NCBI RefSeq assembly: GCF_017298635.1
Contig: NZ_CP071182.1
Coordinates: 5,122,001-5,186,000 of the forward strand
Source of the DNA: Paenalicyclobacillus mengziensis
GTDB taxonomy: Bacteria; Bacillota; Bacilli; Alicyclobacillales; Alicyclobacillaceae
DNA: 64,000 bases
Direction: 5' to 3'
Made by a program: the position numbers and the translations under genes. This document shows, in pieces, positions 49,235 through 58,870 of the stretch (position 1 is the stretch's first letter; every line of letters begins with the position of its first letter). Under the pieces are notes generated by a model, which saw only the letters and a list, made by a program, of their open reading frames with translations, was not told the DNA's origin and made no database searches.

Positions 49235-50866
49235 TTAGTTGACTTTGAATACGGACACATATCTGTTGAGTTCTTCTGCCAATTGCGCGAGAGACTGAGT
49301 AGAAGATGCCGTCTCTTCACTGCTGGCCGCTGACTCGTGAGCCGCTGCAGCAATCGTTTCCACCGATACGAGAACTTCAGATGCCTGTGCAGACTGTTCC
49401 TCACCGGCAGCTGCGATTTCCGTCACTTTGTCTGCTGAAGAATTGACCATTGAGACAATTTTACTGAATGCGTCACCACTTTTTTGCGTGGAAGCAACGC
49501 CGGCCTGAACTGCTTGTACACTCGCCTGTGTGTTTGCTTGCATGGTTTTAATGATGGTGTTAATTTGCTTCGTGGCTTCACCGCTTCGCTCAGCGAGTTT
49601 TCGGACTTCATCGGCGACGACCGCAAAACCGCGACCCTGGTCTCCTGCGCGAGCAGCCTCAATCGCTGCGTTGAGCGCGAGAAGATTGGTCTGATCAGCG
49701 ATATCATCAATCACTTCCACGATTTCCCCAACCCGGTTTGAGTCCTCGTTAAGTCTTGCAATTTGCGCACGAACCTTGTTCATACCGGATACCGAGTCCT
49801 GGACAATTACCTCTCCATTGCGCGCCACGTCCGCTGTCTTCGATGACAGCTCTGCAGCCTCTTCTGCATTTTTAGCGACCGAGTTTATCGCTGTGCTAAG
49901 TTCCCTAAACACCTGGTTGACTGTTTCGGCCGACTCAGCTTGTGCCGTGCTTCCAGAAGCGATTTGTTCTGTGGCTGCGGCGATTTCTTGTGAGGCTGCG
50001 GAGACATTTTCCGCTGCGGATAATACGCCGCTCATAATTTCGCGCAGCTGTGCAACCATTGCATTGACTGACTGAGCTAGTTGTCCCACTTCGTCACGTG
50101 TATTGATGTCTGTCGTATCTCTCAAATCACCCTTTGCAACCTTCGAAACGAGGGCAACCACCTTTTGGAGTGGGCGCGTGATCATTTGTGAAATGGCGAT
50201 GGCCAACCCTAAGCCGATGACGATGGACAGAATGATGATACCAATCAGAATCCATCGTGCTGTGTTCACTAGTGCATGTGCGTTCGTATCTGCTTGGCTC
50301 GCGCTTGTATTGCTCATCGTCATCAACTGTGACAGCAGGCTTGACAATTTATTTCCTTCAGAGTCGAGTGTCGACGATGTCAATGAGGACGCACTCATGA
50401 TGTTTCCCGAATTGAGATCGGACTCAACCTTCTGCAGAGCCGCTTCGTACGCCTTCCATGCCGTCCCGACTTTACCATTCACGACCTGTTGCTCAGCATT
50501 GCTCAAACTTGTGCTCTCGTAGGCACTGAGTTGTGTCTTTGCATTCTTCATGTCAGTGTTTGTTGATGTCAAAAACGTGTTGGGTTCACCAAAAGCGACC
50601 ACCGCACCTTGAATATCCGCACGCGATATTGCGATATCCTCCTGCAATTGTGCGAGGTATTCGATAGGTTGCAGGTTGTTCGTAAACACATGATTAAGAC
50701 TACTTCCAAGTCTGCTGCTCGTTACCAATCCGCTTGTGCCTACAATAATGATGAGTACAATCGAAACTAAAAATGATCCGATAATTTTCAATGAGATCTT
50801 GAGATTTTCTAGCCACTTCATCGAGATCTTGAGATTCTCTAGCCACTTCATCCAAAACCGTTTCAT
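49235..50866 (-). CDS. Methyl-accepting chemotaxis protein with four-helix-bundle sensor
   Basis: A 543-residue receptor, ATG at 50866 behind GGGGGATAAGG. The N-terminus carries an internal duplication: [10 protein letters not shown] occurs twice in tandem before the first membrane helix. An extracellular 4HB_MCP-type helical sensor (about 50-190), second membrane helix, HAMP, and a signalling domain nearly identical to the other receptor ([40 protein letters not shown]) follow. Ligand unknown. Confidence 0.93.
50788..50850. repeat. 30-bp tandem duplication in receptor gene start
   Basis: GAGATCTTGAGATTTTCTAG-type sequence is repeated directly with a 30-bp period (ending CCACTTCATC each time), encoding the doubled [10 protein letters not shown]. 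In frame, so the receptor gains 10 cytoplasmic residues. Confidence 0.85.
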
Positions 50867-51031
50867 CCTTATCCCCCATCTCTTTTGTGAATTTGTACGT
50901 GCCAACCATGCTCCAGTCGCGTATCAATCTCGAAAGACTTTATATAAGCAAATCCTTCAGTCTCTTCTAAGATTTTTGCGCCGTCACACGACTTAATTTT
51001 TGTTTTGGGTTCTCAAAGGATACACGGCCTT

Positions 51032-51388
51032 TCACACCAACTGGGCAATTTCACTCAGCACCTTGTCCTTCTCAAACGGCTTCACGATAAATCCCTTGGC
51101 ACCCGCTTGTATCGCCTCCATGACCATCTCCTTCTGCCCCATCGCGGAACACATTACAATCTTGGCATCAGGATGCTTTTCCTTAATTGCACGTACCGCT
51201 GCGATTCCTTCCATGACAGGCATCGTGATATCCATCGTGACTACATCAGGACTATGTATGTCGTAAAAATCAATGGCTTCTTGTCCATTACTTGCTTCTG
51301 CCACAACTTCGTGTCCACCCTCGCTTAACAAAGTTTTTAACATCATTCTCATAAACGCTGCATCGTCCGTAATCATAATCCGTGCCAT
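51032..51388 (-). CDS. cheY: CheY response regulator
   Basis: A 118-residue single-domain receiver: acidic pocket Asp8-Asp9, phospho-acceptor Asp53 in VVTMDITMPVM, Ser81 switch position, and Lys103 in GFIVKPFEKD. It is the output of CheA and would bind the flagellar switch or another target. Lies 30 bases downstream of cheX in the same run. Confidence 0.96.
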   Translation of the reverse strand: MARIMITDDAAFMRMMLKTLLSEGGHEVVAEASNGQEAIDFYDIHSPDVVTMDITMPVMEGIAAVRAIKEKHPDAKIVMCSAMGQKEMVMEAIQAGAKGFIVKPFEKDKVLSEIAQLV

Positions 51389-51418
51389 GTCTCATCCACC
51401 CCTGCTCTTGTTTAGCCC

Positions 51419-51877
51419 TTACTTTTCGTCAATGATGAGAATTATAGTTAATTCCCCAGTGTTTTGGAGGTCCAACGACACCTTGATTCCGTGTTGGAAT
51501 CCTGCCATCTTCGTTTCTCCAACCAGTACGGTTGGAGGTGTAATATTAAGTATCAATCCAGTTTCCGACAAGGCTGATACCGCATTGCCAGCAACCATGT
51601 TCCCGACTTCACCAACAAAGCTCTCCAGCATGTCCCCTTCTAATGCGACTCCGAACATCGCCGTGCCCAAGTTTGTGAAAGTGGCCCTACTTGCATTCAG
51701 AATTAGACGTCCTGGTAGATCGCCAGCCAGTCCAATGAGGACACCCGTGTCGGATTGAACGAATGACCCCTCTACCAGTGAAGGTCCGGAATTCCGGTTA
51801 CTTTGCACCGGCACAACAGATTTCACGGCATCTAACGTACTGTTGAGTAGATCCGTTACGGTTGCAGCTACACCCAT
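51419..51877 (-). CDS. cheX: CheX-type CheY-P phosphatase, first gene after the c-di-GMP riboswitch
   Basis: A 152-residue CheX/CheC-family protein from the ATG at 51877 (AGGAGAGAAG upstream); the longer reading runs into the riboswitch leader and is rejected. The phosphatase motif E-x-x-N is visible as Glu90 and Asn93 in SFVGEVGNMVAGNA. It dephosphorylates CheY-P in related systems and, with no cheB/cheR here, may be the main signal-termination step. It is the first gene of the run cheX-cheY-mcp-cheW-mcp-cheW-cheA-yjfB. Confidence 0.88.
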   Translation of the reverse strand: MGVAATVTDLLNSTLDAVKSVVPVQSNRNSGPSLVEGSFVQSDTGVLIGLAGDLPGRLILNASRATFTNLGTAMFGVALEGDMLESFVGEVGNMVAGNAVSALSETGLILNITPPTVLVGETKMAGFQHGIKVSLDLQNTGELTIILIIDEK

Positions 51878-51930
51878 CTTCACTTCTCTCCTATCTCTAC
51901 TGGCCATCACAGGGTGAACGGTTCGCAAAT

Positions 51931-51965
51931 GAAAAATGCGCCCCATATTGAACACAGGACGCCGC
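51931..51965 (-). terminator. Expression-platform terminator of the cheX riboswitch
   Basis: On the minus strand GCGTCC ... GGGCGC (6 pairs, one G-T) is followed by ATTTTTCATTT, between the aptamer and the cheX ribosome site. Confidence 0.7.
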
Positions 51966-51971
51966 CATAAG

Positions 51972-52060
51972 GAAGAATATAGCAACCCGGCGATCATAGG
52001 TGAATACCCGTAGACCCGTAGCTTTGTGACACAGAGTTTCCTCTGTTGTACCCGTATTCA
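51972..52060 (-). ncRNA. c-di-GMP-I (GEMM-I) riboswitch upstream of cheX
   Basis: Minus strand. The tetraloop hairpin ACAGAG-GAAA-CTCTGT (P1b) is followed by the conserved joining segment CACAAAGCTACGGGTCT and the P1a/P2 return strand GATCGCCGGGTTGC; GAATA at the 5' end pairs with TATTC at the 3' end. This is the GEMM-I architecture. A terminator hairpin follows before cheX. Compared with the copy at 58783 the core reads CACAAAG instead of CGCAAAG. It should make chemosensory gene expression respond to c-di-GMP; whether binding turns genes on or off cannot be read safely. Confidence 0.9.
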
Positions 52061-52357
52061 AATATTCGTTTTTACGCACACGTCAATTAATATGAGCAAC
52101 CAAACAGCAATTGTCAAGACAATTTCCGACATGATTTCCAATAGTTCGACACTAAACGAAAATGAGGTTAATGCCGTTGTCCCCACGGATTACGTTCTCA
52201 TTCTGCTCATCTCGATTACGTCGCTTGCGTAACATTACAGAGACACTTAGGTAAGTGATGCCACTATACGCCTAGGTAAGGGGTAAGTTCGGGTGAATGC
52301 ACGGTGTGTGGCTCCATTTTGGATACCCATAAAGAGACGGAAATCCACTGATAAACT

Positions 52358-56103: not shown

Positions 56104-56162
56104 TTCGAGTTCGCCTTCGGGACTATGTAAGTGTGTCGATGGAGTCGTCTACGAGCAACGTT

Positions 56163-58715
56163 TTAACAGTCATCAGCAAGCCTCCGATACAAAACGTTAT
56201 ATTCAACTTCGAAATTCCGGTCGCGTTGGTTGCCGACCTGAAGCAGTGTATTTGAATGCCTAATTTTCATAGCAATCAGACCGGTGTCACTCATCACCTT
56301 CACGGCTGTCTCAGTAGCGGACTTTGTTCCTAACTCATGGACACGGACTGTGTTCTTAGCGATCATAAATCCTCCACGTACGTTCCCTTTGACGAGGATT
56401 GTTTCTTCAGACTCCAAAGTACTCGTGTAGACCCCGGCACCTTTTACAATAATTTTACCAGTTGCTCTTAGTACGCTGGATGTTACGGTGTTCGCTCGTA
56501 TATCCGCAGGTTCCGCGGAGGACATTGCCTGAACACGGTCAAGAAAATTCAACAGCTGTTCGTGAAGAAAGTTCACGTCTTGTTCATGGATTTTCATACG
56601 CTGAATAACAAGCCACTTTGACCGCAATTCGTGGCTTAATTGTGCAAATGCAGCATCTCTGGCGGAAAGGTCTCTGAAGTTATTCGAGAGTTGTTCAAAG
56701 GTGCTGAGCAGCATTGGGTGACGCTGTTCCAGAAGTACGTGAGCAATCATCGGAACACTGGTTACTTTACTGGGGTATTTTTGTGCATGCTCAAGCAGAG
56801 TCTTGTATTCCTGATGAAATCGTTCGTATTCAGTTATGCATCTTCTCAGCGTAGGCTCTGTCTTCTGATATAAAAATCTCGACTGTCCAGCGATAACTTG
56901 TGAGCCCACAACCGAACCGGATACAAAGACACCTCGTTCTCCCATTACGGTTGCACACATGATGCTACCGTGAACTGTAATTGTGCCCGAGGATTGGATA
57001 TAAGCACCGTCAAGGATGGACCCATAAATAATCACATCCCCATCAAAATCAATGTTTCCGTCCTTCGAGGTCAGATTATGTCCAATAACCAGCTCAGGAA
57101 CCACATCAATCTTGTCCTTCGTGAATATCAGACGTCCGTTACGCAGAGCGACGAGCATGTCCCCAATTTCAACGACACCTGATCCGATTTTTGGTGATGC
57201 CTTCAGCAAGGGGTGGTCAACCTGTTCTCCGAATACGTTGTATCCGGGGACTCCGGGTGTTCCGCGAGTTAACGTGGCTATTTTCATTCCTACAGTTACT
57301 GTGGAAGTTTTCATACGACGATGTAAAGGGTCGTACACATGTGGTCGTTCTATTTCTATGTAGCTATCAGGCGTACCTGGAATGGGCCTCTTACCGCGTA
57401 GTACCGTTAATTCAATGGTTTCTCGCGCATTACAGATTTGTTCAACCGCCGTCGCATCTAACGTCCCTTGGTATCCAGAGGACTGTAACAGTTGGGCGAC
57501 TGATTCAATGGTCAATGGGTCTGGATACACGGCTTCAGATTTGATTTGAAGAACGATGTGGGCCGATGCTTCGGTGTCAGCCAATCGATACCGTTCACCT
57601 AGTGTAATTTGGCGAACTGCAACGATTTCCATTTTGTCAGGCGATTCTCGGGTAATGAGTCTACTGGTTGGATCCACGTTGTGACTTTCAACAAGAATGT
57701 GGTCGTTCTCCTGAACAAGAACTCGACCAATCGCTGGTACGTTATTTATAGTGACACTCACACGCGGGTCTGATGGGATTTCGATTGTGGCAAAGTGCCC
57801 AAGTTGCTGAGGATCACTGACGATGACTTGTCCGTGGTGAACTCGTACAGTGCCGTTTTGTTGCTCCAATTTCAGAACGACAGATCGGGCTGCACCGAAC
57901 AGGTGCTGACTTGTAGGGACGAGATGAAAGGGCTCTGGTTTCCCCCAAATATACCCCTGACTCAGGTGGATACCCGTTTGTTTAACGACATTTAAGTCAT
58001 CTGTGTTTTCGATGCCTTCCGCAACCACGCGGTCACCATCCCCCATGTAGTCGACAAGCTGAGATACCATCTTCTGCTTGGAGACGGAAGACGATATCCC
58101 GGCAATTAAGGCTCGGTCAAGTTTGATGAGGTCTGGTTCCAACTCGATAATCGATGACAGATTCGACGAACCCAGGCCAACATCATCCAAAGCGAATCGT
58201 AGGCCAATCGCTCTCAACGGACGTAACGCTGCAGCGAGGACAGTAGGGTCATATGTAATGTGTTCTGTGATCTCAAGGACAATTTGACCGGGTTCACATA
58301 AACCGCTTCTGAAGATGGATTCCAATTCAACGTGGAAAGACCGAGAAACAAGGGAACTCGGCATTACATTAATGAACAGTAACTGTTGGCTGTCACGTCT
58401 GGCTCCAATAGAAGATTGCTGGATGGCGCTTCGAATCGCCAGCAAATCGGTCTCCAGGGAATGGTTATAGTCGTGAGAAATACTAAACCAGATATCAGGA
58501 CGAATAGATGTACCACGATATGTTGGTCTACTCAGTGATTCATGAGCAAATATGTCTTGATTCATGTGATTCACGATGGGTTGAAATACCATCGGCAAGT
58601 GTTGTTTATGGATACACTCCAAAATGCTTGCGTGTACTTCCCTTACGTGTGAATTGACAAAGACCACTTGTGCCATGGTTTTTAGCTTGTTTTGAACAAG
58701 AGCCAACGGACCCAA
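56163..58715 (-). CDS. EAL phosphodiesterase domain fused to FapA (DUF342) domain
   Basis: An 850-residue two-part protein. Residues about 35-265 are an EAL domain, with HESLSRP (ESL for EAL), LFINVMPSSL, LEITEHI, FALDDVGLGSSN, LIKLDRALI, VVAEGIE and SQGYIWGKP. All usual metal and catalytic positions are kept. Residues about 290-845 are a FapA/DUF342 region: PGVPGYNVFGEQ, VALRNGRLIF, the beta-helix KDGNIDFDGDVIIYGSILDG, and a coiled-coil segment before the end. The start is TTG at 58715 behind AGAGGGTGAG; the ATG at 58676 is the alternative. A c-di-GMP-I riboswitch precedes it, so a probable c-di-GMP-degrading protein is controlled by c-di-GMP-sensing RNA. I know FapA as a separate protein; this fusion is unusual. 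Confidence 0.9.
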   Translation of the reverse strand: MGPLALVQNKLKTMAQVVFVNSHVREVHASILECIHKQHLPMVFQPIVNHMNQDIFAHESLSRPTYRGTSIRPDIWFSISHDYNHSLETDLLAIRSAIQQSSIGARRDSQQLLFINVMPSSLVSRSFHVELESIFRSGLCEPGQIVLEITEHITYDPTVLAAALRPLRAIGLRFALDDVGLGSSNLSSIIELEPDLIKLDRALIAGISSSVSKQKMVSQLVDYMGDGDRVVAEGIENTDDLNVVKQTGIHLSQGYIWGKPEPFHLVPTSQHLFGAARSVVLKLEQQNGTVRVHHGQVIVSDPQQLGHFATIEIPSDPRVSVTINNVPAIGRVLVQENDHILVESHNVDPTSRLITRESPDKMEIVAVRQITLGERYRLADTEASAHIVLQIKSEAVYPDPLTIESVAQLLQSSGYQGTLDATAVEQICNARETIELTVLRGKRPIPGTPDSYIEIERPHVYDPLHRRMKTSTVTVGMKIATLTRGTPGVPGYNVFGEQVDHPLLKASPKIGSGVVEIGDMLVALRNGRLIFTKDKIDVVPELVIGHNLTSKDGNIDFDGDVIIYGSILDGAYIQSSGTITVHGSIMCATVMGERGVFVSGSVVGSQVIAGQSRFLYQKTEPTLRRCITEYERFHQEYKTLLEHAQKYPSKVTSVPMIAHVLLEQRHPMLLSTFEQLSNNFRDLSARDAAFAQLSHELRSKWLVIQRMKIHEQDVNFLHEQLLNFLDRVQAMSSAEPADIRANTVTSSVLRATGKIIVKGAGVYTSTLESEETILVKGNVRGGFMIAKNTVRVHELGTKSATETAVKVMSDTGLIAMKIRHSNTLLQVGNQRDRNFEVEYNVLYRRLADDC

Positions 58716-58733
58716 CCCAACTCACCCTCTTCC

Positions 58734-58773
58734 ACGCAAACAAACGCCCTGCATAGGAAATACAGGACGTCGC
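58734..58773 (-). terminator. Expression-platform terminator of the EAL-FapA riboswitch
   Basis: Minus strand ACGTCCTG ... CAGGGCGT (8 pairs, one G-T) followed by TTGTTTG, between the aptamer and the gene start. Confidence 0.7.
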
Positions 58774-58782
58774 AAAGAACGA

Positions 58783-58870
58783 ATATAGCAACCCGGCGAT
58801 CATAGACATGTCGTCTTTAGACCCGTAGCTTTGCGTCCCATGGTTTCCCATAGTTTGCCCGTATTCAATA
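58783..58870 (-). ncRNA. c-di-GMP-I (GEMM-I) riboswitch upstream of the EAL-FapA gene
   Basis: Minus strand GAATACGGGCAAACTATGGG, GAAA-type loop, then GGGACGCAAAGCTACGGGTC and ATGATCGCCGGGTTGCTATA. This is a near-textbook GEMM-I core, including GGGCAAAC and CGCAAAG. The flanking GAATA/TATTC pairing and the 3' ATATTC match the cheX riboswitch closely, so the two probably arose by duplication. Confidence 0.94.

Follow-up and report, generated by a model that had tools for sequence, protein, structure and literature searches.

An EAL–FapA fusion protein encoded behind a c-di-GMP-I riboswitch, derived from an Alicyclobacillaceae operon

Cd1 of C. difficile, a class I c-di-GMP riboswitch that controls the flagellar operon, is a proven OFF switch: its aptamer and terminator coexist and compete with an antiterminator that destroys the aptamer and whose own stability is transient (PMC9262584). 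Every one of the seven functional class I switches in C. difficile is OFF, and class I ON switches are also known, as with Bc2 of B. thuringiensis (PMC6366702). The protein parts are known separately as well. Bd1971, BlrP1, and RocR are EAL phosphodiesterases with sensor domains, and FapA of Vibrio vulnificus and V. cholerae is a flagellar assembly protein to which EIIA-Glc binds and which HubP recruits to the pole (PMC6877527, PMC12918733).

The locus studied here lies on a 64,000-nucleotide stretch of DNA (the window) and combines these parts in another way. Its EAL domain shares domain type, fold, and catalytic residues with the three enzymes, but its C-terminal partner is a FapA scaffold and not a sensor domain, and its loop 6 is altered. 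The FapA part belongs to the same family as the Vibrio proteins and has FapA_N and a beta-solenoid with a coiled coil; whereas Vibrio FapA is a separate protein, it is fused to EAL. The leader has in common with Cd1 the class I aptamer and, in silico, a terminator compatible with it and a predicted aptamer-destroying antiterminator. It differs in that it would switch via the 5' strand of P1, has a weak U tract after the terminator, and controls the gene of a c-di-GMP-degrading enzyme rather than flagellar genes. The features are listed in Table 1.

Table 1. Features of the fusion locus in window coordinates.
Feature	Position	Strand	Basis or remark
Response-regulator remnant, 16 codons (MTVKTLLVDDSIDTLT, then stop)	56123..56173	−	Overlaps fusion stop; sequence
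EAL-FapA fusion gene	56163..58715	−	TTG start, 850 aa; start conserved in 4/4 fused genes
FapA region, residues 274-834	56175..57857	−	PF20250, PF03961; model pLDDT mostly 85-97
Flexible linker, residues 244-273	57858..57947	−	pLDDT <50; relaxed dN/dS
EAL phosphodiesterase domain	57936..58625	−	PF00563, 1.4e-43; residues 18-247 of the 837-aa ATG form; model matches EAL structures
Probable Shine-Dalgarno AGAGGG	58725..58730	−	Sequence
Terminator-like hairpin	58743..58771	−	−16.7 kcal/mol; found in all four fused leaders
P1 3' strand UAUUC	58781..58785	−	Folding
c-di-GMP-I (GEMM-I) aptamer	58784..58869	−	RF01051, 75.4 bits, E 5.5e-13, model 1-87/87
5' switching strand GAAUACGGG	58858..58866	−	GAAUA engaged in P1 (with UAUUC), or AAUACGGG engaged in the antiterminator

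EAL and FapA are confirmed to be one protein. The frame contains no internal stop, as the original prediction had it, and the Pfam search returned both domains above their cut-offs: PF00563 with 149.4 bits (cut-off 31.3), FapA (PF03961) with E=1.9e-16, and FapA_N (PF20250) with E=2.1e-12, the HMM scores of FapA_N and the beta-solenoid being 61.0 and 47.2 bits. The four fused genes described below share the TTG at 58715 as start, and the in-frame ATG at 58676 is not conserved. The structure predicted for the whole fusion has a mean pLDDT of 86.6, with the EAL barrel at residues 9–240; in a Foldseek search the barrel matches EAL enzymes, e.g. Bd1971, BlrP1, and RocR. The FapA region is complete, as proposed, and is ordered as N-terminal beta domain, FapA_N, beta-solenoid, coiled coil (598–719), and second beta part (725–831). 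The predicted model agrees, placing strands at residues 501–596 and 725–831 and helices in between with pLDDT of about 85–97. The earlier description of FapA as a polymer-like protein has to be replaced, as PF03961 is a flagellar-assembly family.

The aptamer upstream of the fusion, likewise predicted, was not missed by the covariance model: the match is full length with no broken pairs, the gathering score of RF01051 being 35 bits. A terminator-like hairpin is present before the gene too, as expected, but the U tract that follows it, UGUUUGCGU, is poor. The competing helices of this leader are computed. GAAUA at 58862–58866 pairs with UAUUC in P1; alternatively, AAUACGGG (58858–58865) pairs with CCUGUAUU (58759–58766), the 5' arm of the terminator, to form an antiterminator. 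When not engaged in the latter, the arm forms the terminator hairpin. Aptamer and terminator occupy separate strands and can coexist on folding. For a transcript whose 3' end is in the terminator loop, the antiterminator ensemble is more stable than the P1+P2 ensemble by 8.2 kcal/mol in the window leader and by 5.5–14.2 kcal/mol in the other leaders. Against shuffled arms, the antiterminator is weakest in the window leader (p 0.10). The remaining three fused leaders give p 0.02, 0.007, and 0.003, and two CheX leaders p <0.004 and 0.017, all these leaders being related to each other and not independent. The minimum-energy fold of the full leader without ligand has the terminator together with a CGCAAAG:CUUUGCG helix; as the full leader prefers the terminator, read-through must be kinetic. 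CUUUGCG itself was considered as an antiterminator. It pairs with the aptamer's CGCAAAG yet coexists with the terminator, and was not taken as the switch.

Being built like Cd1, the leader is predicted to be an OFF switch. This sign is clearly favored over ON because the layout with a competing antiterminator is Cd1-like and the functional C. difficile class I switches are uniformly OFF. The window antiterminator's p of 0.10, the poor U tract, and the terminator in the ligand-free minimum-energy fold count against OFF in this in-silico assignment. An OFF switch before a phosphodiesterase gives a double-negative, self-reinforcing loop. Hence, c-di-GMP would most likely repress its own phosphodiesterase, a positive feedback that acts as a latch rather than as homeostasis. 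At low c-di-GMP, the 5' strand of P1 would pair with the 5' arm of the terminator and let RNA polymerase read through, and the phosphodiesterase made would keep c-di-GMP low. At high c-di-GMP, the ligand would hold the aptamer, the terminator would form, and production of the enzyme would stop. The loop could thereby latch the cell in a low-signal (motile) or a high-signal (sessile) state, and FapA would keep the enzyme at FapA's own site of action. Such an OFF switch would make a simple, testable bistable circuit. The original prediction of a feedback device in which c-di-GMP sets the level of its degrading enzyme holds as to self-regulation, with the aptamer placed before that enzyme's gene; the sign that such a device would usually have most likely does not, as the in-silico evidence points to OFF.

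"Feedback device" usually implies the ON direction, in which high c-di-GMP would induce its own phosphodiesterase and the device would be homeostatic. We regard this as unlikely. Class I ON switches do exist, Bc2 being one (PMC6366702), and in the free full-length leader the CGCAAAG:CUUUGCG helix disrupts the aptamer without preventing the terminator, a behavior compatible with read-through that depends on ligand. However, a search for a ligand-dependent antiterminator found none, the coexistence of aptamer and terminator on separate strands is the OFF layout of Cd1, and the antiterminator pairing with the 5' strand of P1 is conserved in the fused and CheX leaders. The observed domains, aptamer, residue conservation, selection, and operon ancestry are best explained by an active c-di-GMP phosphodiesterase that is attached to a FapA scaffold and made under the control of a c-di-GMP-I OFF riboswitch, with the gene derived from an operon by one deletion; we consider this account probable, the polarity in vivo, the catalysis, and the place in the cell being its inferred parts.

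Four fused copies were found, two in the window genome (82% identical to each other) and two in Alicyclobacillus curvatus, one of these on a plasmid. The window organism counts, broadly taken, as an Alicyclobacillus. A. curvatus, which belongs to the same genus and was found among the relatives, is the only other carrier: among 399 genomes sampled evenly from the class, the survey of the architecture gave no fusion beyond the window genome. Long "open frames" in G002, G025, and G045 were examined as fusions and proved to be neighboring genes separated by a stop codon. When EAL and FapA trees are built separately, the four copies group as one clade with support of 100/100 in both, consistent with one fusion event. 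Pairwise dN/dS is 0.05–0.11 for EAL, 0.10–0.22 for FapA, and 0.3–0.7 for the short linker, at dS of 0.5–2.8. Judged from these ratios, both domains are under purifying selection, and the fusion is retained in all four copies. An assembly error or frameshift between the domains, the artifact to be feared here, is ruled out by the open frame and by four copies under selection. The fusion is thus real, conserved, and selected, a variant built of known parts.

Selection on the parts shows that the parts matter, not that joining them does, and the fusion might be the neutral outcome of a deletion that struck a duplicated operon, functioning no differently from the separate proteins. Only one of the four fused copies retains an intact response regulator, the other three having lost or truncated it, and the window genome still has an intact unfused operon (from 1395411 onward), as such a history would have it. 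We nevertheless think it improbable given purifying selection on both domains and retention of the fusion in every copy over the dS range above.

The fusion is a derived form of a conserved operon of Alicyclobacillaceae, the family of the named relatives, and of their kin, with the Spo0E-like domain lost. The relatives have the same riboswitch, EAL subfamily, and FapA type in the same order: GEMM-I aptamer, EAL gene of ~320 codons, FapA gene of ~630 codons, and CheY-like regulator gene of ~150 codons. The aptamer is present at every relative locus examined that includes upstream sequence. FapA had been expected to be usually separate, and in the relatives it is a separate gene, more exactly the next gene in the same riboswitch operon. 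Compared with this operon, the window locus has EAL and FapA in one protein, lacks the Spo0E-like domain, and keeps a remnant of the regulator. Seven unfused EAL proteins were tested, and each has a Spo0E-like domain at its C-terminus (PF09388, E 5.7e-11 to 2.1e-6); this domain is absent from the fused proteins, and PF09388 has no HMM match in the window fusion. The site of the linker corresponds in the relatives to the Spo0E-like domain, the stop codon, and the start of FapA. A single deletion that joined the first two genes of the ancestral operon would have produced the fusion. Decay of the regulator differs among copies: on the A. curvatus plasmid it is intact and overlaps the fusion stop, the second copy of the window genome has a slightly longer remnant than the window's, and in the fourth copy nothing is left.

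The joining of EAL to a Spo0E-like phosphatase is an observation in itself (L065, 2083–3042; homologues in L061, L072, L074, L076, L077, and L080), and it may link c-di-GMP with the sporulation phosphorelay. In the literature searched, nothing relevant was found on Spo0E combined with EAL or on Alicyclobacillus and c-di-GMP riboswitches. Plasmid pAACI02 of A. acidocaldarius DSM 446 (L080/L181) carries the same operon with EAL gene, poly-G, and regulator, and its FapA is in pieces.

The metal, substrate, and general-base residues of the EAL domain are all present. E46, N103, E135, E138, D164, D165, K185, E220, and Q240 are invariant in the fused proteins and the unfused relatives (16 relatives), and they are spaced as in RocR. 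ESL replaces the EAL motif, as had been noted, with the catalytic glutamate kept. Loop 6 reads DDVGLGSSN, compared with the canonical DDFGTGYSS, and retains both aspartates; a canonical loop 6 supports activity and does not define the family. The residues make phosphodiesterase activity likely, and the altered loop could lower it. That the domain is instead a sensor, whose binding of c-di-GMP would control FapA assembly in the manner of FimX and LapD, is quite doubtful. The degenerate loop 6 would suit this reading, as would the attachment of EAL to a scaffold, no second catalytic partner being present. Against it, fused proteins and unfused relatives alike keep all residues that bind metal or substrate, purifying selection is strongest on EAL, and FimX and LapD, unlike the fusion, have lost catalytic residues.

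The window genome contains 18 GEMM-I aptamers, a number that exceeds the 12 class I riboswitches in C. difficile 630 (PMC6366702). Such an aptamer precedes each of the five FapA genes that score above the cut-off in the whole genome, and at least six transcription units for c-di-GMP enzymes as well. The genes behind aptamers include two GGDEF genes, one EAL-PAS-GGDEF gene, three EAL-FapA units, CheA, CheB-FapA, two CheX-CheY-receptor operons, a TadE-like protein, and two HisKA_3-type kinases followed by TPR proteins. One of the CheX operons lies in the window: a second c-di-GMP-I aptamer (51978–52062, minus strand, 65.7 bits) precedes the CheX/CheY/chemotaxis-receptor operon at 49235–51997, and this unit has a near-duplicate at genome position 5207586. 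By analogy with Vibrio, the flagellar or polar role of FapA may extend to Alicyclobacillus. Through its constant pairing with GEMM-I, in an operon and then within a single polypeptide, the poorly understood FapA family becomes linked to c-di-GMP in Gram-positive bacteria.

Outside the window, unfused EAL genes of the relatives have a run of 12–29 G near the 5' end (16 sites, distributed over 14 of the 41 family genomes, one genome per species), and the reversed control pattern gave no site in the same 41 genomes. Two genomes of another family of the class have runs of 25 and 29 G. The loci with such tracts are L036, L038, L041, L060–L063, L070, L080, L084–L099, and L186; several draft contigs end inside the tract. 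The EAL tract is the sole run of at least 13 G in the near-closed genomes G002, G026, G032, and G021, and G017 has two such runs, both at this type of EAL gene. Where an upstream start is readable, the frame is ON in L036, L038, and L060 and OFF in L037, L041, L061, L062, L070, and L080 (L061 and L062 read by eye). The fused genes of the window genome have no poly-G, and its unfused copy has an interrupted tract and reads ON. Read across species, these tracts are probably the signature of contingency loci, i.e. of phase variation. A role of the tract as promoter spacer before a TATAAT-like box, TAT nearly always following it, was considered and rejected: in L061, L062, and L063, the stretch from the tract to the EAL core contains no start codon, and translation must therefore begin upstream.

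Stochastic control of a c-di-GMP phosphodiesterase is known from C. difficile, which varies PdcB via an invertible DNA switch (PMC9286219). The relatives would achieve it with a homopolymer tract, and the window gene has neither. As far as the literature searched shows, the homopolymer means would be new for this enzyme class. Taken together, these loci might, tentatively and with less confidence than the account of the fusion itself, represent an undescribed device of Alicyclobacillaceae and their kin. In it, an OFF riboswitch would drive an EAL enzyme with an exchangeable C-terminal partner (Spo0E-like ancestrally, FapA in the fusion), accompanied by FapA and a CheY-like regulator. Random switching by the ancestral poly-G and the riboswitch latch would decide on motility, attachment, and perhaps sporulation, and the fusion would have been freed from poly-G and from the phosphorelay branch. 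A phase-variable EAL-Spo0E protein, to which the relatives point, would tie the breakdown of c-di-GMP to the sporulation phosphorelay.

Receptor-like and PAS-type genes of G078 and G097 have further poly-G tracts close to their 5' ends (L190, L191, L198, and L199). A mobile DNA element shared by the sites was rejected as their explanation; the extra tracts are in or near the 5' ends of these genes, and no such element is needed. Phase variation in these two genomes may extend to other signaling genes.
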